Shown here in pieces: positions 1,145 to 9,470 of a stretch of DNA of 55,380 nucleotides (position 1 is its first letter; each line of letters opens with the position of its first letter). This stretch comes from Bacteroidales bacterium (GTDB lineage Bacteria > Bacteroidota > Bacteroidia > Bacteroidales > JAADJA01). The stretch lies in NCBI GenBank assembly GCA_020438135.1, contig JAGQVF010000003.1:14545-69924 (forward strand), given 5' to 3'. Made by a program: the position numbers and the translations under genes. A model generated the notes under the pieces. That model was not told the origin of the DNA and did not search any database. It was given only the letters and a program-made list of their open reading frames with translations.

Positions 1145-2806
1145 ATGAAAACAGCAATGTCAACCCTGGTAAGTGTGATGATCGCGATTGCAGGAATTAT
1201 TTTGCTTCAAACGCCATCATTTGCGCAGAATGATGCCACAGTAAAAGTGATTTGTTCAGCAGAGACGGCTGATCTGGCAAATTCTCTTGCAGGCATTTAC
1301 AAACAATCAAATTCAGATGTACAACTTAAAGTTGCTCAGGTAGCTTCCGGTGAAATTGATAAAAATGTACCGGATAATCAATGTATTGCCCTCTTGCACG
1401 AAAATCCTGTTTCGGAGAAAATGCCTAAAGGATTTAAAAACATTGTAATAGGCCGTAATATTTATGTTTGGGTGATCAATTCAGAAAGCAAGTATGTTGA
1501 AATGATCTGTGAAAAGGGGGTTCTTTTGGATGACCTGATGGCTTCAATGAAAACCGGGCAAATCTCTTACCCGCAGGTAAATGATGTTTCCGAAAATTCA
1601 AAAGTGTTTGTTTCGAAAACGGCTACATCTGAAGCTATTTTTTCACCTATGTTTAAATCATCCGAATTAATCAGTAATGATCAGATTGAAATTGCAGATC
1701 GCATAACTGATGCGGTTCAGCAAAATCCTGATGCCATCGGGTTTTGCCGTTTAAATGAAGTGATTGATCCACAATCCGGAGAACTGGCACAAGGTATTAC
1801 ATTAATGCCGATTGATAAAAATAAAAATGGCAATCTGGATGATTTTGAAAACATTTATCAATCAATTGATGATTTTACCCGGGGCGTATGGATGGGTAAA
1901 TATCCAGGTGCGCTGGTTAGCGAACTATATGCTGTTGTGCCGGGCCAACCCTCCGCGGCCACCAGAGATTTTACCAGTTGGTTGATAACCTCCGGTCAGC
2001 AGATCGTGGCATCGATGGGTTATAACGAGCTTGTGTTCGGAGAAAAACAATTCAGGCTTGCCGCGTTAAATGACCTGAATGCAACAGAAAAGCAGTCAGG
2101 TAATTCCTTTGCCACGATCAGAGCCATATTCATTGTAATTTCTGTACTGATCATTTTGGCCATTATCGTTGGTTTGATCTGGGGTTCGGCAAGCCGTCGT
2201 AAAGAAATTTCCCTGGCAGGTAAAACTCATCCCGGAGTTCCTCTTTCGGGCAATAGCTTCGATCTGCCTAAAGGTCTTTATTTCGACAGCTCACATACCT
2301 GGATCTACATGCAAAAAGACGGTCGTGTGAAAGTGGGAATTGATGACTTCATCTCTCATGTAACGGGGCCTTTTACCAAAATCGATATGCGTGAACCGGG
2401 TGATAAAATTAAGAAGAATGAAAAAGTTCTGTCGCTCTTTCAAAATGGTAAACAACTTGATATTTATGCCCCTGTATCAGGCAGGATCGTAAATATCAAC
2501 GAGGATCTTGTTACGGATCCATCGCTGGTAAATGATTCGGTTTATGAAAATGGATGGATTTACGAAATAGAACCATCGAATTGGATGCGGGAAATTCAGT
2601 TTTTTAGAATGGCAGAAAATTATCGCGATTGGCTGAAATACGAATTGCACCGCTTCAAGGATTTTCTGGCAGCACATGTTTATAAACAGGGATCTCTTGT
2701 TTTCCAGGATGGCGGTGAGATCTCCGATCAGGTGATGCGAAATCTCGACCCAAAAATATGGGAAGATTTTCAGAAAAAGTTTATGGATACATCAGGTTTA
2801 AAATGA
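1145..2806 (+). CDS. exported substrate-binding-like domain fused through a membrane helix to a GcvH-like domain
   Basis: The 553-residue protein has three parts. Residues 1-28 are a signal peptide ending TPSFAQ. Residues about 30-320 resemble PstS-type periplasmic binding proteins (early strand VKVICSAETADLAN, late motif YAVVPGQPSAATRDFTSWL). A membrane helix at about 324-347 is followed by SRRK, which puts the C-terminus in the cytoplasm. Residues about 372-553 resemble glycine cleavage H protein, with DIYAPVSGRIVNIN after the hairpin. The lipoyl-lysine motif (ESVKAAS in GcvH) is replaced by QNGKQL: K436 is one residue nearer to DIY than the lipoyl lysine, and G435 takes its place. The gene opens a cluster with a Tat ferredoxin (36-bp gap), an NrfD-type subunit and a second GcvH-like protein. 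It may be a scaffold or sensor subunit. Neither ligand nor function is known. Confidence 0.75.
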   Translation: MKTAMSTLVSVMIAIAGIILLQTPSFAQNDATVKVICSAETADLANSLAGIYKQSNSDVQLKVAQVASGEIDKNVPDNQCIALLHENPVSEKMPKGFKNIVIGRNIYVWVINSESKYVEMICEKGVLLDDLMASMKTGQISYPQVNDVSENSKVFVSKTATSEAIFSPMFKSSELISNDQIEIADRITDAVQQNPDAIGFCRLNEVIDPQSGELAQGITLMPIDKNKNGNLDDFENIYQSIDDFTRGVWMGKYPGALVSELYAVVPGQPSAATRDFTSWLITSGQQIVASMGYNELVFGEKQFRLAALNDLNATEKQSGNSFATIRAIFIVISVLIILAIIVGLIWGSASRRKEISLAGKTHPGVPLSGNSFDLPKGLYFDSSHTWIYMQKDGRVKVGIDDFISHVTGPFTKIDMREPGDKIKKNEKVLSLFQNGKQLDIYAPVSGRIVNINEDLVTDPSLVNDSVYENGWIYEIEPSNWMREIQFFRMAENYRDWLKYELHRFKDFLAAHVYKQGSLVFQDGGEISDQVMRNLDPKIWEDFQKKFMDTSGLK

Positions 2807-2842
2807 GGTTGTTAACCGATCTCTGACAAAAATGTAGAAGTT

Positions 2843-3718
2843 ATGAATTTAGATCGACGAAATTTTTTCAGGGTGCTGGGCCTCACAGGGGCTACCCTGA
2901 CGATTGGAACTGATTTGAAAGCAAATCAGGAACAAGACGAAAATCACGAACCGGTAGAGTTTTATGGAATTCTGTATGACAGCACTATGTGCGTTGGTTG
3001 CCAAACCTGCGAGTTTATTTGTGCAGAAACTCATGAACTCCCTGAACCAACCGATATTCCGCGTATCGGAGAAGTAAGAAAAACAGATGAAACATGCCGA
3101 ACGGTTGTCAATGCATTTGATTCCCCGATTGGAGAAGTGGATATTAAAACACAGTGCATGCATTGTAATGAGCCGGCCTGTGTTTCTGCTTGTTTAACGC
3201 AGGCCATGTACAAAACGAAAGAAGGACCCGTAATCTGGCGAGGAGACAAATGTATGGGATGCCGCTATTGTATGGTCTCCTGTCCGTTTGATGTTCCGAA
3301 ATTCGAATATCACAGCCCGAATCCGAAAATTACAAAATGCGATATGTGTTACGATCGTCTGCAGGAAGGGCAATTACCGGCCTGTGTTGAGAACTGTCCT
3401 GCCGAAGCGCTGATGTTCGGTAAAAGAAGTGACCTTATCAAAGAAGCACGCAAAAGGATAGTCGAAAACCCTGATACCTATTACGATCACATATTCGGTG
3501 AAAAAGAAGCGGGTGGAACCGGGTTTATGTATCTGGCACCGGTATCGTTCGACAAACTTGGTTTCAAAACCAACCTTCAAAATAAATCTTATCCCGAACT
3601 GTCGAAAGGATTTTTGTACAGTGTTCCCTCTATATTTGTCCTGTGGCCTGCTATGCTGCTGGGATTACATGAAGCAACAAAGAATAAACAAATCAAAAAC
3701 GAAGAAGAAAATGAATAA
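2843..3718 (+). CDS. Tat-exported four-cluster ferredoxin subunit (HybA/DmsB type)
   Basis: This 291-residue electron-transfer subunit starts with a twin-arginine signal (DRRNFFRVLGL), so it should act in the periplasm. It has sixteen cluster-ligand cysteines in four groups: C50/53/56/60, C105/108/113/117, C137/140/143/147 and C166/169/181/185, the pattern of HybA/PsrB/NrfC proteins that hold four [4Fe-4S] clusters. A hydrophobic stretch near the C-terminus (YSVPSIFVLWPAMLLGL) is a membrane anchor, as in HybA. Such proteins pass electrons between a periplasmic catalytic subunit and an NrfD/HybB quinone subunit. That partner is encoded next, overlapping by 8 bases, but no hydrogenase or molybdopterin subunit is nearby, so the electron donor or acceptor is unknown. 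Confidence 0.88.
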   Translation: MNLDRRNFFRVLGLTGATLTIGTDLKANQEQDENHEPVEFYGILYDSTMCVGCQTCEFICAETHELPEPTDIPRIGEVRKTDETCRTVVNAFDSPIGEVDIKTQCMHCNEPACVSACLTQAMYKTKEGPVIWRGDKCMGCRYCMVSCPFDVPKFEYHSPNPKITKCDMCYDRLQEGQLPACVENCPAEALMFGKRSDLIKEARKRIVENPDTYYDHIFGEKEAGGTGFMYLAPVSFDKLGFKTNLQNKSYPELSKGFLYSVPSIFVLWPAMLLGLHEATKNKQIKNEEENE

Positions 3719-4946
3719 TACAGCCACAATTTCTTTGCAGGAAGAACAAAAGACAAAAAATACCTGGAAATTCCTTTTAAGTGAACTCAAGCCCAAAGGT
3801 AAATTCTTTACACCTTTCAACATCATTTCACTTCCGATCATGCTGCTGGGAGCTGTTTTGATTGTAATCCGTTTCTGGAAAGGGATCGGATCGGTTACTA
3901 ACCTCACACAGGATGTTCCCTGGGGGCTTTGGATCGGATTTGATGTGGTAACCGGAGTAGCTTTTGCCGGTGGTGCTTATGTGATCACTTTTATGGTTTA
4001 CATTCTCAATATGCGTAAATATCATTCCATTGTAAGGGTTACAGTGCTTAACGGTTTCCTTGCTTATGTATTTTATGCAGGCGCCTTGCTGCTCGATCTG
4101 GGACGCCCCTGGAACGTGATCAACCCGATCATCGGGAATAGCTTCGGGACAAGTTCAGTATTGTTCCTGGTGGCCTGGCATTTCCTGTTATATATGATTG
4201 CACAATTGATTGAGTTTTCGCCGGCCATTGCTGAATGGCTTGGTGCCAAACGAGCCAGGAAAATACTGTCGGGAATGACCCTCGGTGCCGTAATTTTCGG
4301 GATCACCTTGTCGACGCTTCATCAATCGGGTTTGGGAGCTCTGTACCTGATGGCCAAAGAGAAAATCCATCCGCTTTGGTATTCTGAATTTATCCCGATC
4401 CTGTTTTTTGTCTCCAGTATTTTTGCCGGTTTATCGATGGTGATTTTCGAAGGTTCGATCAGTCACAAGGTTTTTTCAGATCAGATCAGTGAAAAAAACC
4501 ATAAATCCCATAACAAGATCATACATGGTTTGGCAAGGATTTGTGCCGGTGCTATGTTTGCCTACCTGTTTCTGCATATTGTCAATTTTGTGCACGGACA
4601 ACACTGGAACCTGATCAATTCTCCGATGGGATATTGGTACCTTACAGAGATGCTGGGTTTTGTGGTACTACCACTTGTTTTATATGTATACAGTTATCGA
4701 AAAATGAACATCCTGCTGATTAAAATTGCCTCAGTCATTACCATGCTTGGAATTATTATAAACCGATTGAACATCACGGTTATCGGGTTTAAATGGGATG
4801 CCGCTTCACACTATTATCCTTCTTGGATGGAGATTGTGGTTACCCTCGCGGTTATTTTTACAGAAATATGGATATTCCGGTGGATCATTAATCGTATGCC
4901 CGTGCTCCGTGAATCACCTGCATGGGCCAAATCACAAAGTAGTTAA
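3711..4946 (+). CDS. NrfD/HybB-family integral membrane quinone-interacting subunit
   Basis: The protein has 411 residues and about ten membrane helices. It contains the HybB-like segment PWGLWIGFDVVTGVAFAGGA and, in the next helices, GALLLDLGRPWNVINPI. NrfD-type proteins bind quinone and exchange electrons with a periplasmic four-cluster ferredoxin. The start at 3711 (MNNTATISLQEE) is preferred: the longer reading frame upstream lies inside the ferredoxin gene and would add a non-matching 71-residue tail. The 8-base overlap with the preceding stop suggests translational coupling. The 18-bp gap to the next gene keeps it in the same operon. The HybA/HybB resemblance is clear; with no catalytic subunit here the reaction is inferred only as quinone oxidation or reduction. 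Confidence 0.87.
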   Translation: MNNTATISLQEEQKTKNTWKFLLSELKPKGKFFTPFNIISLPIMLLGAVLIVIRFWKGIGSVTNLTQDVPWGLWIGFDVVTGVAFAGGAYVITFMVYILNMRKYHSIVRVTVLNGFLAYVFYAGALLLDLGRPWNVINPIIGNSFGTSSVLFLVAWHFLLYMIAQLIEFSPAIAEWLGAKRARKILSGMTLGAVIFGITLSTLHQSGLGALYLMAKEKIHPLWYSEFIPILFFVSSIFAGLSMVIFEGSISHKVFSDQISEKNHKSHNKIIHGLARICAGAMFAYLFLHIVNFVHGQHWNLINSPMGYWYLTEMLGFVVLPLVLYVYSYRKMNILLIKIASVITMLGIIINRLNITVIGFKWDAASHYYPSWMEIVVTLAVIFTEIWIFRWIINRMPVLRESPAWAKSQSS

Positions 4947-4964
4947 CCTTAAAAAATTACAACA

Positions 4965-5675
4965 ATGGAAGGATTTACATATCATAATATATTTGAAACC
5001 AAAGGGATAGAATATATCGTTATCATTGGTTTCCTGATACTGATCATACCTTTCTGGTTTATCATCAACAAAAAGAACCCAGTTGTTAAGCGTATTCAAA
5101 ATACCATTTCTTCTATTTCGGCTCGCTTACTCCGAATCCCTGCCGGATTACTATTTGGCAAAAACCATATGTGGGCATTTATGGGTAGCGATGGAAAAGC
5201 AAAAATAGGGGTTGATGATTTTCTGGTACAGGTGGTCGGTGAGTTCGATATTGTTCCACTCAAGTCAATTGGTGAACATGTTAAAGCCGGTGAAAAGCTG
5301 GCAATAGTGAAACGGAAAGGCAAACAGCTAAACCTCACTTCCCCTGTTTCGGGCGAAATTTTAGATGTAAATGCCTCGGTTTTTGAATCTTCAGAAATGA
5401 TAAGCGACGATCCGTTTAAGACAGGTTGGTTATTCAGTGTTAAACCCAACAACTGGAAGATAGAGATGAACAGAGGAATGATAGGTGATGAAGCCGTTTC
5501 ATGGTTCGGTCAGGAGGTTGATCGATTCAAGGATTTTTTGGCAGTTTCACTCAAAAAAAATACACCTGACGCATCGCTTGTCGCTTTGCAGGAAGGTGGT
5601 GAAATCAGGAGTAAAGTGCTGGCTGAACTTGATAATGATATTTGGAGAGATTTTGAAAATGAGTTTCTGCAATAA
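4965..5675 (+). CDS. membrane-anchored GcvH-like protein, paralogue of the C-terminal half of the 1145-2806 product
   Basis: The 236-residue protein has one N-terminal membrane helix (about 16-36), then basic residues (NKKNPVVKR), which puts the rest in the cytoplasm. Residues about 60-180 are GcvH-like (LLFGKNHMWAFMGSDGKAK; LTSPVSGEILDVN). As in the first protein, the lipoyl-lysine loop reads KGKQL (G119, K120), so the modified lysine is missing or shifted by one. A C-terminal part shared by both (RFKDFLA; EGGEI; DIWRDFENEF against KIWEDFQKKF) is not part of ordinary GcvH and marks a distinct subfamily. It closes the four-gene set. A role as a cytoplasmic adaptor of the NrfD complex is inference. 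Annotating it as a glycine cleavage H protein would be wrong: no gcvT or gcvP is nearby. Confidence 0.75.
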   Translation: MEGFTYHNIFETKGIEYIVIIGFLILIIPFWFIINKKNPVVKRIQNTISSISARLLRIPAGLLFGKNHMWAFMGSDGKAKIGVDDFLVQVVGEFDIVPLKSIGEHVKAGEKLAIVKRKGKQLNLTSPVSGEILDVNASVFESSEMISDDPFKTGWLFSVKPNNWKIEMNRGMIGDEAVSWFGQEVDRFKDFLAVSLKKNTPDASLVALQEGGEIRSKVLAELDNDIWRDFENEFLQ

Positions 5676-5869: not shown

Positions 5870-7576
5870 ATGGCTTTTCTTGCAGAAAAAACACTTCAAA
5901 AATTTCGTATCAGGTTATTGTACGAAAAATATCTCAGGTTTCATTCATCGCTTTACGGTAGGGTTATCTACATCATCATCCTGCTTTCGCTGATCCTGTT
6001 TTTTTCGTTCGGGATCATTTTCAGATCGGTGTATGAGGATTATCTGAATACTGTAATTCGTCAGTGCGGAAACAATGTTGTATCCATTGTTGAAGGGGCC
6101 CTGTATCATTCCATGCTGAAGAATGATAAAGGCGCCCTGCAGAGTACGTTGGATGTAATCCATACCCTGCCCGGCGTAGATGATGTTAATATGTACAATA
6201 AGGATGATGAACTTGTATATTCCTCCTATGCAGAAAATGAGGATCACAGTGATCCCAATTGTTTAAATTGTCATGCCGGGATAAGATCCATGTTCGGTGG
6301 TGCAGGCACGTCGTATAAGATTATCGACGAAATGACTGCCTGTAGTATGACTGCGAGTGGTAACGGACACAGGCAATTGATGATCCGAGCACCAATCTAC
6401 AATCAGCGATCATGTTATGTAAGCGCCTGCCATGCACATAACCAATCCGAAACAGAATTGGGTTCATTAATTGTTAAGGTTCCCCTCCAAAATATCGACA
6501 GGGCTGTTCAGGAGTCTTCCAGGAATTATTTTATACTGGCGGCCATCACCACTATTCTTTTGGGTGCCTTTTTGATCGTTTTTACCCAAACCAATATTAA
6601 AAACCCTTTAAAGGAAATTTTAGGTGCCAGTGAGGCTGTAGCCCGGGGAGATAAAAGCACAAGATTGGATATAAAACGCGGTCAGCCTGAAGATCTGAAG
6701 ACCGTTTCCAAAGCTTTTAACAATATGTTAGACAACCTTGACAAGGCCAATAAAGAACTCGAAAACTGGTCGCACCAACTTGAATACAAAGTTCAGAAAA
6801 AGTCGGAAGAGCTTTCAGAAATGCAAAACGAACTGATACATGTGGAACGCATCGCTTCCATTGGAAAACTATCTTCATCGGTGGCACATGAAATCAATAA
6901 TCCGCTATCGGGTGTGTTAACCTATACCAAACTGGTCCAGAAACAGCTAAATAAAATGAACCTCAGCGAAACCGAACCGATTATAAAATATTTAAAGATC
7001 ATCGAAACAGAAACCAAAAGATGTGGTGACATCGTAAGGGGCTTGCTTGATTTTTCACGAAAGGACCGTAAAAATTTTGAGGCCAGGTCCATTCACCGGA
7101 TTCTCAAGGATACATATAACCTAATGGCTCACCAAATGAAAATCGCAGATATTTATTTTTATACCGATTTCCAGGCTAAAGAAGATGAAGTTGTTTGCAG
7201 CGAAAACCAGATTAAACAGGCCTGTGTTGCTATTTTGGTGAATGCTCTCGAAGCGGTATCTGAACATGGTGAGGTGCTCATCAAAACTACAAATCCCGAT
7301 GAAAGTCACATCCGGATTGATATTTCGGACAATGGAGTCGGAATTGCACAACAGGACCTGGCCCATATATTTGAACCCTTTTTCTCTGCCAAACACAAAA
7401 CAAGTGGAATCGGACTTGGGTTAGCTATTGTGCATGGTATTGTTGAGAATCATAAAGGTAAAATAGATATAAAAAGTGCACCGGGTGAAGGAACCACCCT
7501 GTCGATCAATCTTTCATTATCAAAAATCACAGCAATAGAAAACCATGAAGAAGAACATTTCGCTATTAATAGTTGA
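5870..7576 (+). CDS. membrane sensor histidine kinase with heme-c-type motifs in the periplasmic sensor
   Basis: The 568-residue kinase has membrane helices at about 31-53 and 220-240 around a 165-residue periplasmic sensor. The sensor carries a classic heme-c motif CLNCH (C131, C134, H135) and a second motif CYVSACH (C182, C187, H188, a CX4CH form). Then come a HAMP domain (about 240-295), a coiled coil, an H-box with phosphoacceptor H340 (SSVAHEINNPLSG), and an ATPase domain with DNGVGIAQQDLAHIFEPFF and GIGLGLAIVHG. Covalent heme would let it sense redox state or a gas ligand such as NO, CO or O2; this is inferred. Its gene overlaps the response-regulator gene by 32 bases, so the two are a cognate pair, and it follows the NrfD-type operon that the pair probably controls. 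Confidence 0.87.
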   Translation: MAFLAEKTLQKFRIRLLYEKYLRFHSSLYGRVIYIIILLSLILFFSFGIIFRSVYEDYLNTVIRQCGNNVVSIVEGALYHSMLKNDKGALQSTLDVIHTLPGVDDVNMYNKDDELVYSSYAENEDHSDPNCLNCHAGIRSMFGGAGTSYKIIDEMTACSMTASGNGHRQLMIRAPIYNQRSCYVSACHAHNQSETELGSLIVKVPLQNIDRAVQESSRNYFILAAITTILLGAFLIVFTQTNIKNPLKEILGASEAVARGDKSTRLDIKRGQPEDLKTVSKAFNNMLDNLDKANKELENWSHQLEYKVQKKSEELSEMQNELIHVERIASIGKLSSSVAHEINNPLSGVLTYTKLVQKQLNKMNLSETEPIIKYLKIIETETKRCGDIVRGLLDFSRKDRKNFEARSIHRILKDTYNLMAHQMKIADIYFYTDFQAKEDEVVCSENQIKQACVAILVNALEAVSEHGEVLIKTTNPDESHIRIDISDNGVGIAQQDLAHIFEPFFSAKHKTSGIGLGLAIVHGIVENHKGKIDIKSAPGEGTTLSINLSLSKITAIENHEEEHFAINS

Positions 7577-8885
7577 TGACGAAGAATCGGTTCGTGATTC
7601 GTTGCAAAACTGGTTTATCGAAGACGGGTACGTGGTTGATTGTGCTGAAAATGCCAAGACTGCCCTGTCTATGCTCGAACGAAGGGAATACGATATCATC
7701 CTTGCTGATATTAAAATGCCCGGTATGGATGGAATGGAGATGCACCGCCGCATTAAATCCCTTAACCAAAGTTCAATCGTAATTATCATGACTGCCTTCG
7801 CTTCTGTTGAAACCGCTGTGCAGGCTTTAAAAGACGGTGCTTATGATTACATTACGAAACCTTTTGACCCCGATGATCTTTCCCATCTGATCAGAAATGC
7901 ATCCCGGCAAATCACTTTGAGTGCTGAAAATGAAGCGTTGAAAAAGAAATTGATCTCATTGGAAAATATTGAGGATATTATTGGGAACAGCGAACCCATG
8001 ATCAGGGTATTAAAAGAAGTTGAAAGTGTGGCGCAGTCAAATTCATCCGTTATTGTTACAGGCGAAAGTGGCACTGGTAAAGAGCTGATAGCAAGAGCAA
8101 TTCACTCCAATTCACCCCGAAAGTATTTCCCATTGGTGTCGGTACATTGTGGAGCGCTCACCGAATCATTGCTCGAGAGTGAATTGTTCGGACACGAAAA
8201 AGGCGCTTTTACCGGTGCCATGTTCAACAGGAAAGGTCGGTTCGAAATGGCTGATGGTGGAACCATTTTTCTGGATGAAATAGCTACCATTTCCGGGAAA
8301 ATGCAAATAGAGCTGTTACGGGTCCTCGAAACCAAATCATTTATGAGGGTAGGAGGTAACAAAGAGATCAAATCTGATTTCAGAGTGATCTGTGCTACCA
8401 ATCGCGACCTGAAATCCCTGGTTGATAACGGAACCTTCAGGGAAGATTTGTATTACCGCCTGAACGTTGTGAACATACATGTACCTCCCCTGCGTGAAAG
8501 GGCTGATGATATCCCCATGTTGGTTGATCATTTCATTCAAAAATATTGTACTTCGATGAGTCGAAATATGATCAGTATTGATCAGGCAGCGTTGAAGAAG
8601 TTGAGCAGTTATGATTTTCCAGGGAATGTGCGTGAACTTGAAAACATTATCGAAAGGGCGATTGTTGTAGGAAACGGTAAGGAGATAACCGTAAAGGATC
8701 TTCCTCTGGCCAGTGAGTCGATCGGTACTTCATATGAAAGTCTTGAAGACCTCGAACGTAAATATATCAATGAAGTGCTTGACCGAAACAACTGGAATAT
8801 TTCCAGGTCAGCCCGTTCGCTTAAGGTTGACAGGGTTACGCTTTATAATAAGATTAAAAAGTATGGCCTCAGAACTGATAAATAA
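7545..8885 (+). CDS. NtrC-family sigma54-dependent response regulator
   Basis: The 446-residue protein has the three domains of a sigma54 enhancer-binding regulator. The receiver (1-120) has acidic residues D11-D12, phosphoacceptor D55 (ILADIKMPG) and the lysine in ITKPFD. The AAA+ domain (about 145-380) has Walker A GESGTGKE (about 172-179), the GAFTGA loop that contacts sigma54 (about 220-225), and GGTIFLDEIA as Walker B. The C-terminal Fis-type helix-turn-helix includes NISRSARSLKVDRVTLYNKI. Every motif needed for ATP hydrolysis and sigma54 contact is present. It overlaps the kinase gene by 32 bases. Its likely targets are the palindromes at 894-999, by position and because no other sigma54 activator is in the window; this is inferred. 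Confidence 0.93.
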   Translation: MKKNISLLIVDDEESVRDSLQNWFIEDGYVVDCAENAKTALSMLERREYDIILADIKMPGMDGMEMHRRIKSLNQSSIVIIMTAFASVETAVQALKDGAYDYITKPFDPDDLSHLIRNASRQITLSAENEALKKKLISLENIEDIIGNSEPMIRVLKEVESVAQSNSSVIVTGESGTGKELIARAIHSNSPRKYFPLVSVHCGALTESLLESELFGHEKGAFTGAMFNRKGRFEMADGGTIFLDEIATISGKMQIELLRVLETKSFMRVGGNKEIKSDFRVICATNRDLKSLVDNGTFREDLYYRLNVVNIHVPPLRERADDIPMLVDHFIQKYCTSMSRNMISIDQAALKKLSSYDFPGNVRELENIIERAIVVGNGKEITVKDLPLASESIGTSYESLEDLERKYINEVLDRNNWNISRSARSLKVDRVTLYNKIKKYGLRTDK

Positions 8886-8939: not shown

Positions 8940-9470
8940 TTGAGCCTTTTTGATATAACATTGATTTCTTTTGGGCATTTTGATGAAAAATGCATTGAGC
9001 AGATCAGCAAAACTGTTCGTCAAGTATATGGATATCCAGTGGTTATGGAAGAAAACTTGCCTGAAATGAATCTTTTTTATAATGGCGAACGCAGGCAGTA
9101 TGATGCCAATAAAATTCTTGAATATCTTCACGAAAATCATTTGAATGAAAGATTCAGGATCATTGGATTGTTTCGCGTTGATCTCTATATACCTATCCTT
9201 ACCTACATCTTTGGACAGGCTTATTTTAAAGGCAGGGCAGGAGTAGCTTCTATCTATCGACTGAGAAACGAACAATATGGTATGCCCAAAGACGATGATT
9301 TGTTACTGCAACGATTTATCAAGGTTATTATCCACGAACTGGGCCATACATTTGGCCTGGTTCATTGTCATAATCCCGGGTGTGTGATGCGAACGAGCAC
9401 GTATGTTGAAGATATCGATCAGAAAAGTACCTATTTATGCAATCATTGTAAACCGCAGCTAAAACTATAG
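8940..9470 (+). CDS. archaemetzincin-type zinc protease
   Basis: The 176-residue protein carries the archaemetzincin signature HELGHTFGLVHC (H132, H136 and H142 as zinc ligands, E133 catalytic), then C143, C148, M150 of the met-turn, and C167/C170, which with C143/C148 form the second, structural zinc site. Archaemetzincins are small cytoplasmic metalloproteases, common in archaea and scattered in bacteria; substrates are mostly unknown. The start is taken as TTG at 8940 because the conserved first strand (DITLISFGHFDEK) lies before any in-frame ATG, and an in-frame stop lies 24 bases upstream. No Shine-Dalgarno sequence is visible. It lies 54 bp after the response-regulator gene and may be co-transcribed with it. 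Confidence 0.88.
   Translation: MSLFDITLISFGHFDEKCIEQISKTVRQVYGYPVVMEENLPEMNLFYNGERRQYDANKILEYLHENHLNERFRIIGLFRVDLYIPILTYIFGQAYFKGRAGVASIYRLRNEQYGMPKDDDLLLQRFIKVIIHELGHTFGLVHCHNPGCVMRTSTYVEDIDQKSTYLCNHCKPQLKL

Follow-up and report, generated by a model that had tools for sequence, protein, structure and literature searches.

What does a bacterium do with two proteins that keep the fold of the glycine-cleavage H protein (GcvH) but no longer have its lipoate-bearing lysine? The question is raised by a 55,380-nucleotide stretch (the window) of a Bacteroidales bacterium (assembly GCA_020438135.1, contig JAGQVF010000003.1, positions 14,545 to 69,924), in which two such genes lie in a seven-gene operon with genes for an iron–sulfur (FeS) protein, an NrfD-family membrane subunit, a histidine kinase and a response regulator. 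We propose, with a probability of about 0.5, that the GcvH-like pair serve as lipoate-free, membrane-tethered cytoplasmic adaptors between a quinone-linked electron-transfer unit and a redox two-component system.

The upstream protein (1145..2806, + strand, as are all features of the window given here; 553 amino acids), defined by a Pfam match, a predicted model and alignment, is laid out as a signal or first transmembrane (TM) segment, a PstS-like periplasmic domain (residues 30–316), a TM segment (321–347), a GcvH-like domain (372–500; 2258..2644) and a C-terminal extension (501–553; 2645..2803) reading QDGGE ... P-x2-W-x-D-F-Q. The downstream protein (4965..5675; 236 amino acids) consists of a TM segment (9–35), a GcvH-like domain (56–184; 5130..5516) and an extension (185–236). 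Both GcvH-like domains were delimited by fold comparison. Both proteins exceed the gathering score of 22.2 for Pfam GCV_H (PF01597; 86 bits upstream, 67.9 bits downstream) and fall below the curated cut-off of 115.85 for the GcvH equivalog TIGR00527 (80 and 63.3 bits). A sequence-only reading of the locus had held that both domains keep the GcvH fold, and the predicted models (pLDDT 78 for the larger protein, mean pLDDT 82 for the downstream TM form) bear this out: domain 1 matched the Escherichia coli H-protein (3a8j_E; Z 19.6, root-mean-square deviation 1.2 Å over 127 residues, 31% identity) and the downstream domain (residues 56–188) matched the H-protein 1htp (Z 16.7, 1.9 Å over 129 residues). 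The extension common to both proteins, with its invariant Q-x-G-G, W and F positions, is real and absent from GcvH as had been claimed, although its start had to be moved to after about residue 185, as the C-terminal helix of GcvH itself is also matched, up to model residue 184–188 of the downstream protein.

Within this fold the SPVSG hairpin context of GCV_H is kept and the modification site is not. Domain 1 reads QNGKQL (residues 433–438; 2441..2458; in the context F-Q-N-G-K-Q-L), with G435 in the place of the lipoyl lysine and K436 one residue later (+1; G435-K436, 2447–2452), and domain 2 reads RKGKQL (residues 117–122; 5313..5330), with G119 and K120 in the same relation (5319–5324). Alignment of the TM-form profile with solved GcvHs (1onl, 3a8i) is free of gaps and sets G119 on the lipoyl lysine; G435 aligns likewise, and the glutamate at −3 is gone in both domains. 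The shift by one residue in both paralogues, as first noticed, is far beyond chance. The genome holds one further strong GCV_H match, a true GcvH (L001) with the site E-A-V-K, and the organism is therefore not short of a lipoyl-type GcvH.

This change is not a peculiarity of one genome. A scan of named genomes yielded 207 relatives in all, among them 80 Bacteroidota loci from Bacteroidales metagenome-assembled genomes (MAGs) and from cultured Sunxiuqinia elliptica, S. dokdonensis and S. indica, which together contributed 155 GcvH-like domains. The lysine column of these domains holds glycine in 142, aspartate in 6, asparagine in 3, serine in 2 and lysine in 2; glycine stands there in all 66 domains fused to a PstS-like domain (PBP-GcvH), in 8/9 unfused upstream copies and in 68/80 downstream copies. 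The ExxK motif, whose presence in homologues would have argued for a normal site, occurs in none of the 155, against E[AV]VK in 18/18 true GcvHs of the phylum. In a FastTree tree of 158 domains, whose deeper forks are soft, all true GcvHs lie on one side of a branch valued at 100, and on this tree the loss of the lipoyl site is a single change. The family-wide loss of both the lysine and ExxK supports the suggestion that these are probably lipoate-free domains.

Could the lysine at +1 have taken over, as a relocated lipoylation site or as a new covalent modification? It is invariant in the PBP-fused copies (66/66) and is found in 73 of the 80 downstream ones, and in the downstream model the hairpin is intact, with strands 111–117 and 120–125. 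The sequence-only reading had asked whether K120 sits at the tip of this hairpin; the model places it next to the turn, which is formed by K118-G119, K120 itself opening the return strand. In one lipoyl domain studied, the lysine had to occupy the turn's tip, and lysines at adjoining positions were not lipoylated (PMC6270654). Moreover, the remaining downstream copies, orthologues in the same operon, carry G (3), R (2), I (1) or N (1) at +1, among 62 TM-type members across the phylum, where K and H also occur, 13 have R and 5 have N, and in other branches the rule is R for receiver fusions and G for a Cys-rich type. Because the +1 lysine is replaced by R, N, G or I outside the PBP-fused form, and with the −3 glutamate gone, a new lysine-modification site appears unlikely, and we give either proposal a very small chance. 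The other simple explanation, that these are decaying, functionless duplicates of GcvH, has in its favour that the canonical lipoyl site is lost. It is already contradicted by conservation, and we practically discount it: the reading frames are intact, gene order is conserved in about 80 loci, and residues are invariant across copies of about 30–53% identity. The earlier preference for selection over decay is upheld, because the change is fixed throughout the family in intact, syntenic genes of a single origin.

The setting of the pair points to signalling. The seven genes, all on one strand between 1145 and 9470 with short gaps, run in the order PBP-GcvH (PstS-like–TM–GcvH), FeS protein, NrfD, TM-GcvH, histidine kinase, NtrC-type regulator and archaemetzincin. 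This exact order is found in 53 of the 80 loci, most of the rest being cut by contig ends, and it persists in families of the phylum that are further removed, where the upstream GcvH is unfused and the downstream one usually Cys-rich. The operon is sharply bounded: any flanking gene recurs in at most 6 of the 80 loci, and none is conserved as a possible regulon member. The FeS protein (2843..3718) has 4Fe-4S dicluster domains and a Tat-like N-terminus (RRNFF) and resembles HmcB/HybA, while the NrfD-family subunit (3711..4946) resembles HmcC/HybB. The kinase (5870..7576) has a HAMP domain and a periplasmic domain with two heme-c motifs, a CxxCH (residues 131–135; 6260..6274) conserved in 130/132 aligned homologues and a CxxxxCH type (residues 182–188; 6413..6433) whose columns are conserved in 132/132. 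Both motifs lie between the N-terminal TM segment and HAMP, in a sensor part with no Pfam match. The regulator (7545..8885) has receiver, sigma-54 AAA+ (GAFTGA present) and Fis-type helix-turn-helix domains, and RpoN is encoded in the same genome. Archaemetzincin (M54; 8940..9470), with an intact HELGHTFGLVH zinc motif, is the last conserved gene of the module and the constant end of this signalling operon. Net charge around the TM segment (mean of 55 sequences) is −1.9 before and +3.5 after it, and by the positive-inside rule both GcvH-like domains are predicted to be cytoplasmic. The PstS-like domain of the upstream protein (model residues 28–313) matches phosphate-binding proteins (4jwo, Z 21.6; profile match to 4gd5). 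It contains an EF-hand-like calcium loop, DKNKNGNLDDFE (1814–1849; residues 224–235), in which D224, N226 and E235 do not vary across 37 sequences.

The link between GcvH-like protein and kinase goes beyond the sequence-only reading. Among 247 genomes of one order, the GcvH-like protein occurs in 35 and the kinase sensor region in 34; both are found in 34, the GcvH-like protein without the kinase in 1 and the kinase without the GcvH-like protein in 0 (Fisher p 5e-41). The 35th genome (G517) has the start of the FeS gene joined to the end of the kinase gene in one open reading frame (L116:5323-6546), which is probably a deletion or an assembly join. By genome distribution, the heme-motif kinase has an obligate partner in the upstream GcvH-like gene. 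The same does not hold for NrfD, which has no match anywhere in six GcvH-like-bearing genomes, at the locus or genome-wide. Five of these keep one GcvH-like protein, of the upstream clade, together with kinase, regulator and archaemetzincin, and have no close FeS homologue either. Four of the six (G496, G526, G399 and G598) have a relative in the same family with the full operon, and the cassette of FeS protein, NrfD and downstream GcvH therefore seems to have dropped out in one piece on several occasions. The last of the six NrfD-less genomes (L112) encodes a downstream-type GcvH fused to a cytochrome b561 (Ni_hydr_CYTB; L112:5281-6687) beside a 7-heme cytochrome. Here the electron-transfer unit is swapped and the GcvH tag retained, b561 standing in for the NrfD/FeS cassette.

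Other fusions and neighbourhoods, likewise new to this analysis, extend the range of partners. In three loci (L054:7038-9045, L235:12629-14653 and L237:5075-7058) two tandem receiver-GcvH proteins follow a kinase, in the company of genes for FeS, NrfD and a 13-heme cytochrome; in receiver fusions of other lineages the GcvH-like domain is the C-terminal module. In genome G078 the GcvH-like genes flank QrcABCD (QrcA 231.8 against a cut-off of 180, QrcD 589 against 570), with the genes for kinase, archaemetzincin and regulator adjacent, and G228 looks alike. In other families the second GcvH-like protein carries a Cys-rich N-terminal stretch (e.g. CIWMEAGVVSYKLCDRNFECEDCPFD; L038:5553-6404, L055:11084-11833, L036:6076-6828), a part with no Pfam match which may bind a metal or cluster. 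Stretches of the CPFLREAQVKxC type also occur on GcvH-like proteins beside QrcA/QrcB-like genes in L239, L240 and L241 (G228, G078 and G014). Searches of plasmids yielded partial matches, most of them annotated as ordinary GcvH, and nothing that matched the kinase.

The upstream GcvH tracks the kinase, and the downstream one tracks the electron-transfer unit or is fused to it; most simply read, the two related domains bridge these halves. We propose that the NrfD/FeS unit (or Qrc, or b561 with a multiheme cytochrome) would let the quinone pool and the periplasm exchange electrons, and that the heme motifs of the kinase would read redox state. On its cytoplasmic side the electron-transfer unit would have the downstream GcvH-like domain as a handle; this domain would meet the upstream one, which would dock on the kinase while bearing the PstS-like domain in the periplasm. 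The kinase could thereby be informed of, or placed beside, a particular quinone-linked electron-transfer unit, with the hairpin tip and the QxGG/FxxxF extension acting as contact surfaces rather than a cofactor site and with output through the NtrC-type regulator and sigma-54. Several points weigh against this proposal. The bridge is putative, and so are the direction in which electrons flow, the output genes and the contacts among GcvH-like domains, kinase and NrfD; co-occurrence in one operon can stem from joint transfer instead of direct interaction; the co-occurrence counts come from one order and mostly from MAGs, in which absences can be assembly gaps; and a strict −24/−12 promoter scan of the window and the 80 loci found no sigma-54 site near the operon. 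The GcvH-like domains flanking complete QrcABCD sets in G078 and G228 would also fit a plain enzyme-subunit role. This is the main rival: the GcvH-like proteins may be structural parts of a respiratory quinone oxidoreductase of the NrfD/Qrc type, with the kinase and regulator doing no more than controlling its expression. The HmcB/HmcC-like neighbours and the b561 fusion speak for it together with the Qrc case, but it does not account for the five genomes that keep the upstream GcvH-like protein, kinase, regulator and archaemetzincin without an NrfD match or close FeS homologue, nor for the receiver fusions, which put the domain in a signalling chain; we hold it possible but doubtful. Another possibility is that the PstS-like domain is the main input, with phosphate or calcium perhaps as ligand, and that the redox genes are targets or passengers. 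The PstS-like fold and the several invariant positions of its EF-hand-like loop would suit such a sensor. Upstream copies without the domain nevertheless keep the same partners, both within the order (L089, L095, L099, L100, L102, L117 and L118) and outside it, and both kinase heme motifs are near invariant, so that ligand sensing as the main input seems improbable.

How far do known systems cover this arrangement? With GcvH (PF01597, TIGR00527) the proteins share the whole fold, including the C-terminal helix, but differ in their TM anchors and in fusion to PstS-like, b561 or receiver domains as well as in the lost site and added extension, and their neighbours are FeS, NrfD and kinase genes, not other glycine-cleavage genes. 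GcvH-L of Streptococcus (5a35; Z 11.9 and 13.2) is likewise a diverged GcvH relative outside glycine cleavage; it is a soluble protein of a macrodomain/sirtuin operon and, unlike the proteins described here, is not known to be linked to NrfD or a kinase. LbpA of sHdr sulfur oxidation offers another example of a GcvH-like paralogue recruited to a redox system. It fails as a match, however, because it keeps the lysine, which is strictly conserved, along with two strictly conserved cysteines in most members and a place beside hdr-like genes (PMC6067878). None of these features is found here, and the GcvH-like domains of the window are without any cysteine. HmcB/HmcC, HybA/HybB and QrcABCD share the pairing of FeS protein and NrfD membrane subunit, and some relatives carry the full QrcABCD set, but the window's proteins score below the Hmc cut-offs (NCBIfam HmcB 325 bits, cut-off 420; HmcC 411 bits, cut-off 550) and have two GcvH-like proteins, a kinase and a regulator attached. 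Periplasmic c-type heme sensors are known in Geobacter (GSU0582, GSU0935) and Desulfovibrio (DcrA) (PMC8396549). There too a periplasmic sensor with heme-c motifs feeds a cytoplasmic signalling unit, as is predicted here from the motifs; the differences lie in the histidine kinase, the combination of CxxCH and CxxxxCH, a sensor part without a Pfam match and the obligate GcvH-like partners. Searches of the open literature for GcvH-like proteins or archaemetzincin paired with NrfD, and for GcvH joined to a receiver, turned up no account of the cluster; subscription papers lay mostly outside these searches, which makes the negative weak evidence of novelty.

Lipoate carriage is the role ascribed to GcvH and its relatives, and annotation by family would give these proteins the same label. 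The present data set apart a large, anciently fixed GcvH-like branch whose canonical site cannot hold lipoate and which has ties to signalling; this suggests that an old metabolic fold has been re-used as a signalling adaptor. More tentatively than for the operon itself, we would generalize that the GcvH fold without its cofactor site is a dedicated signalling domain, pairs of which join swappable units (NrfD/FeS, Qrc, b561/multiheme) to a heme-c kinase and, as receiver-GcvH, form a direct target of the phosphosignal, in what would be a new class of redox-signalling complex. If the adaptor proposal is true, these bacteria would report the state of a specific quinone-linked complex, beyond ambient redox, to a transcription factor, and a gene set of many uncultured Bacteroidales and of cultured Sunxiuqinia would have a proposed function.

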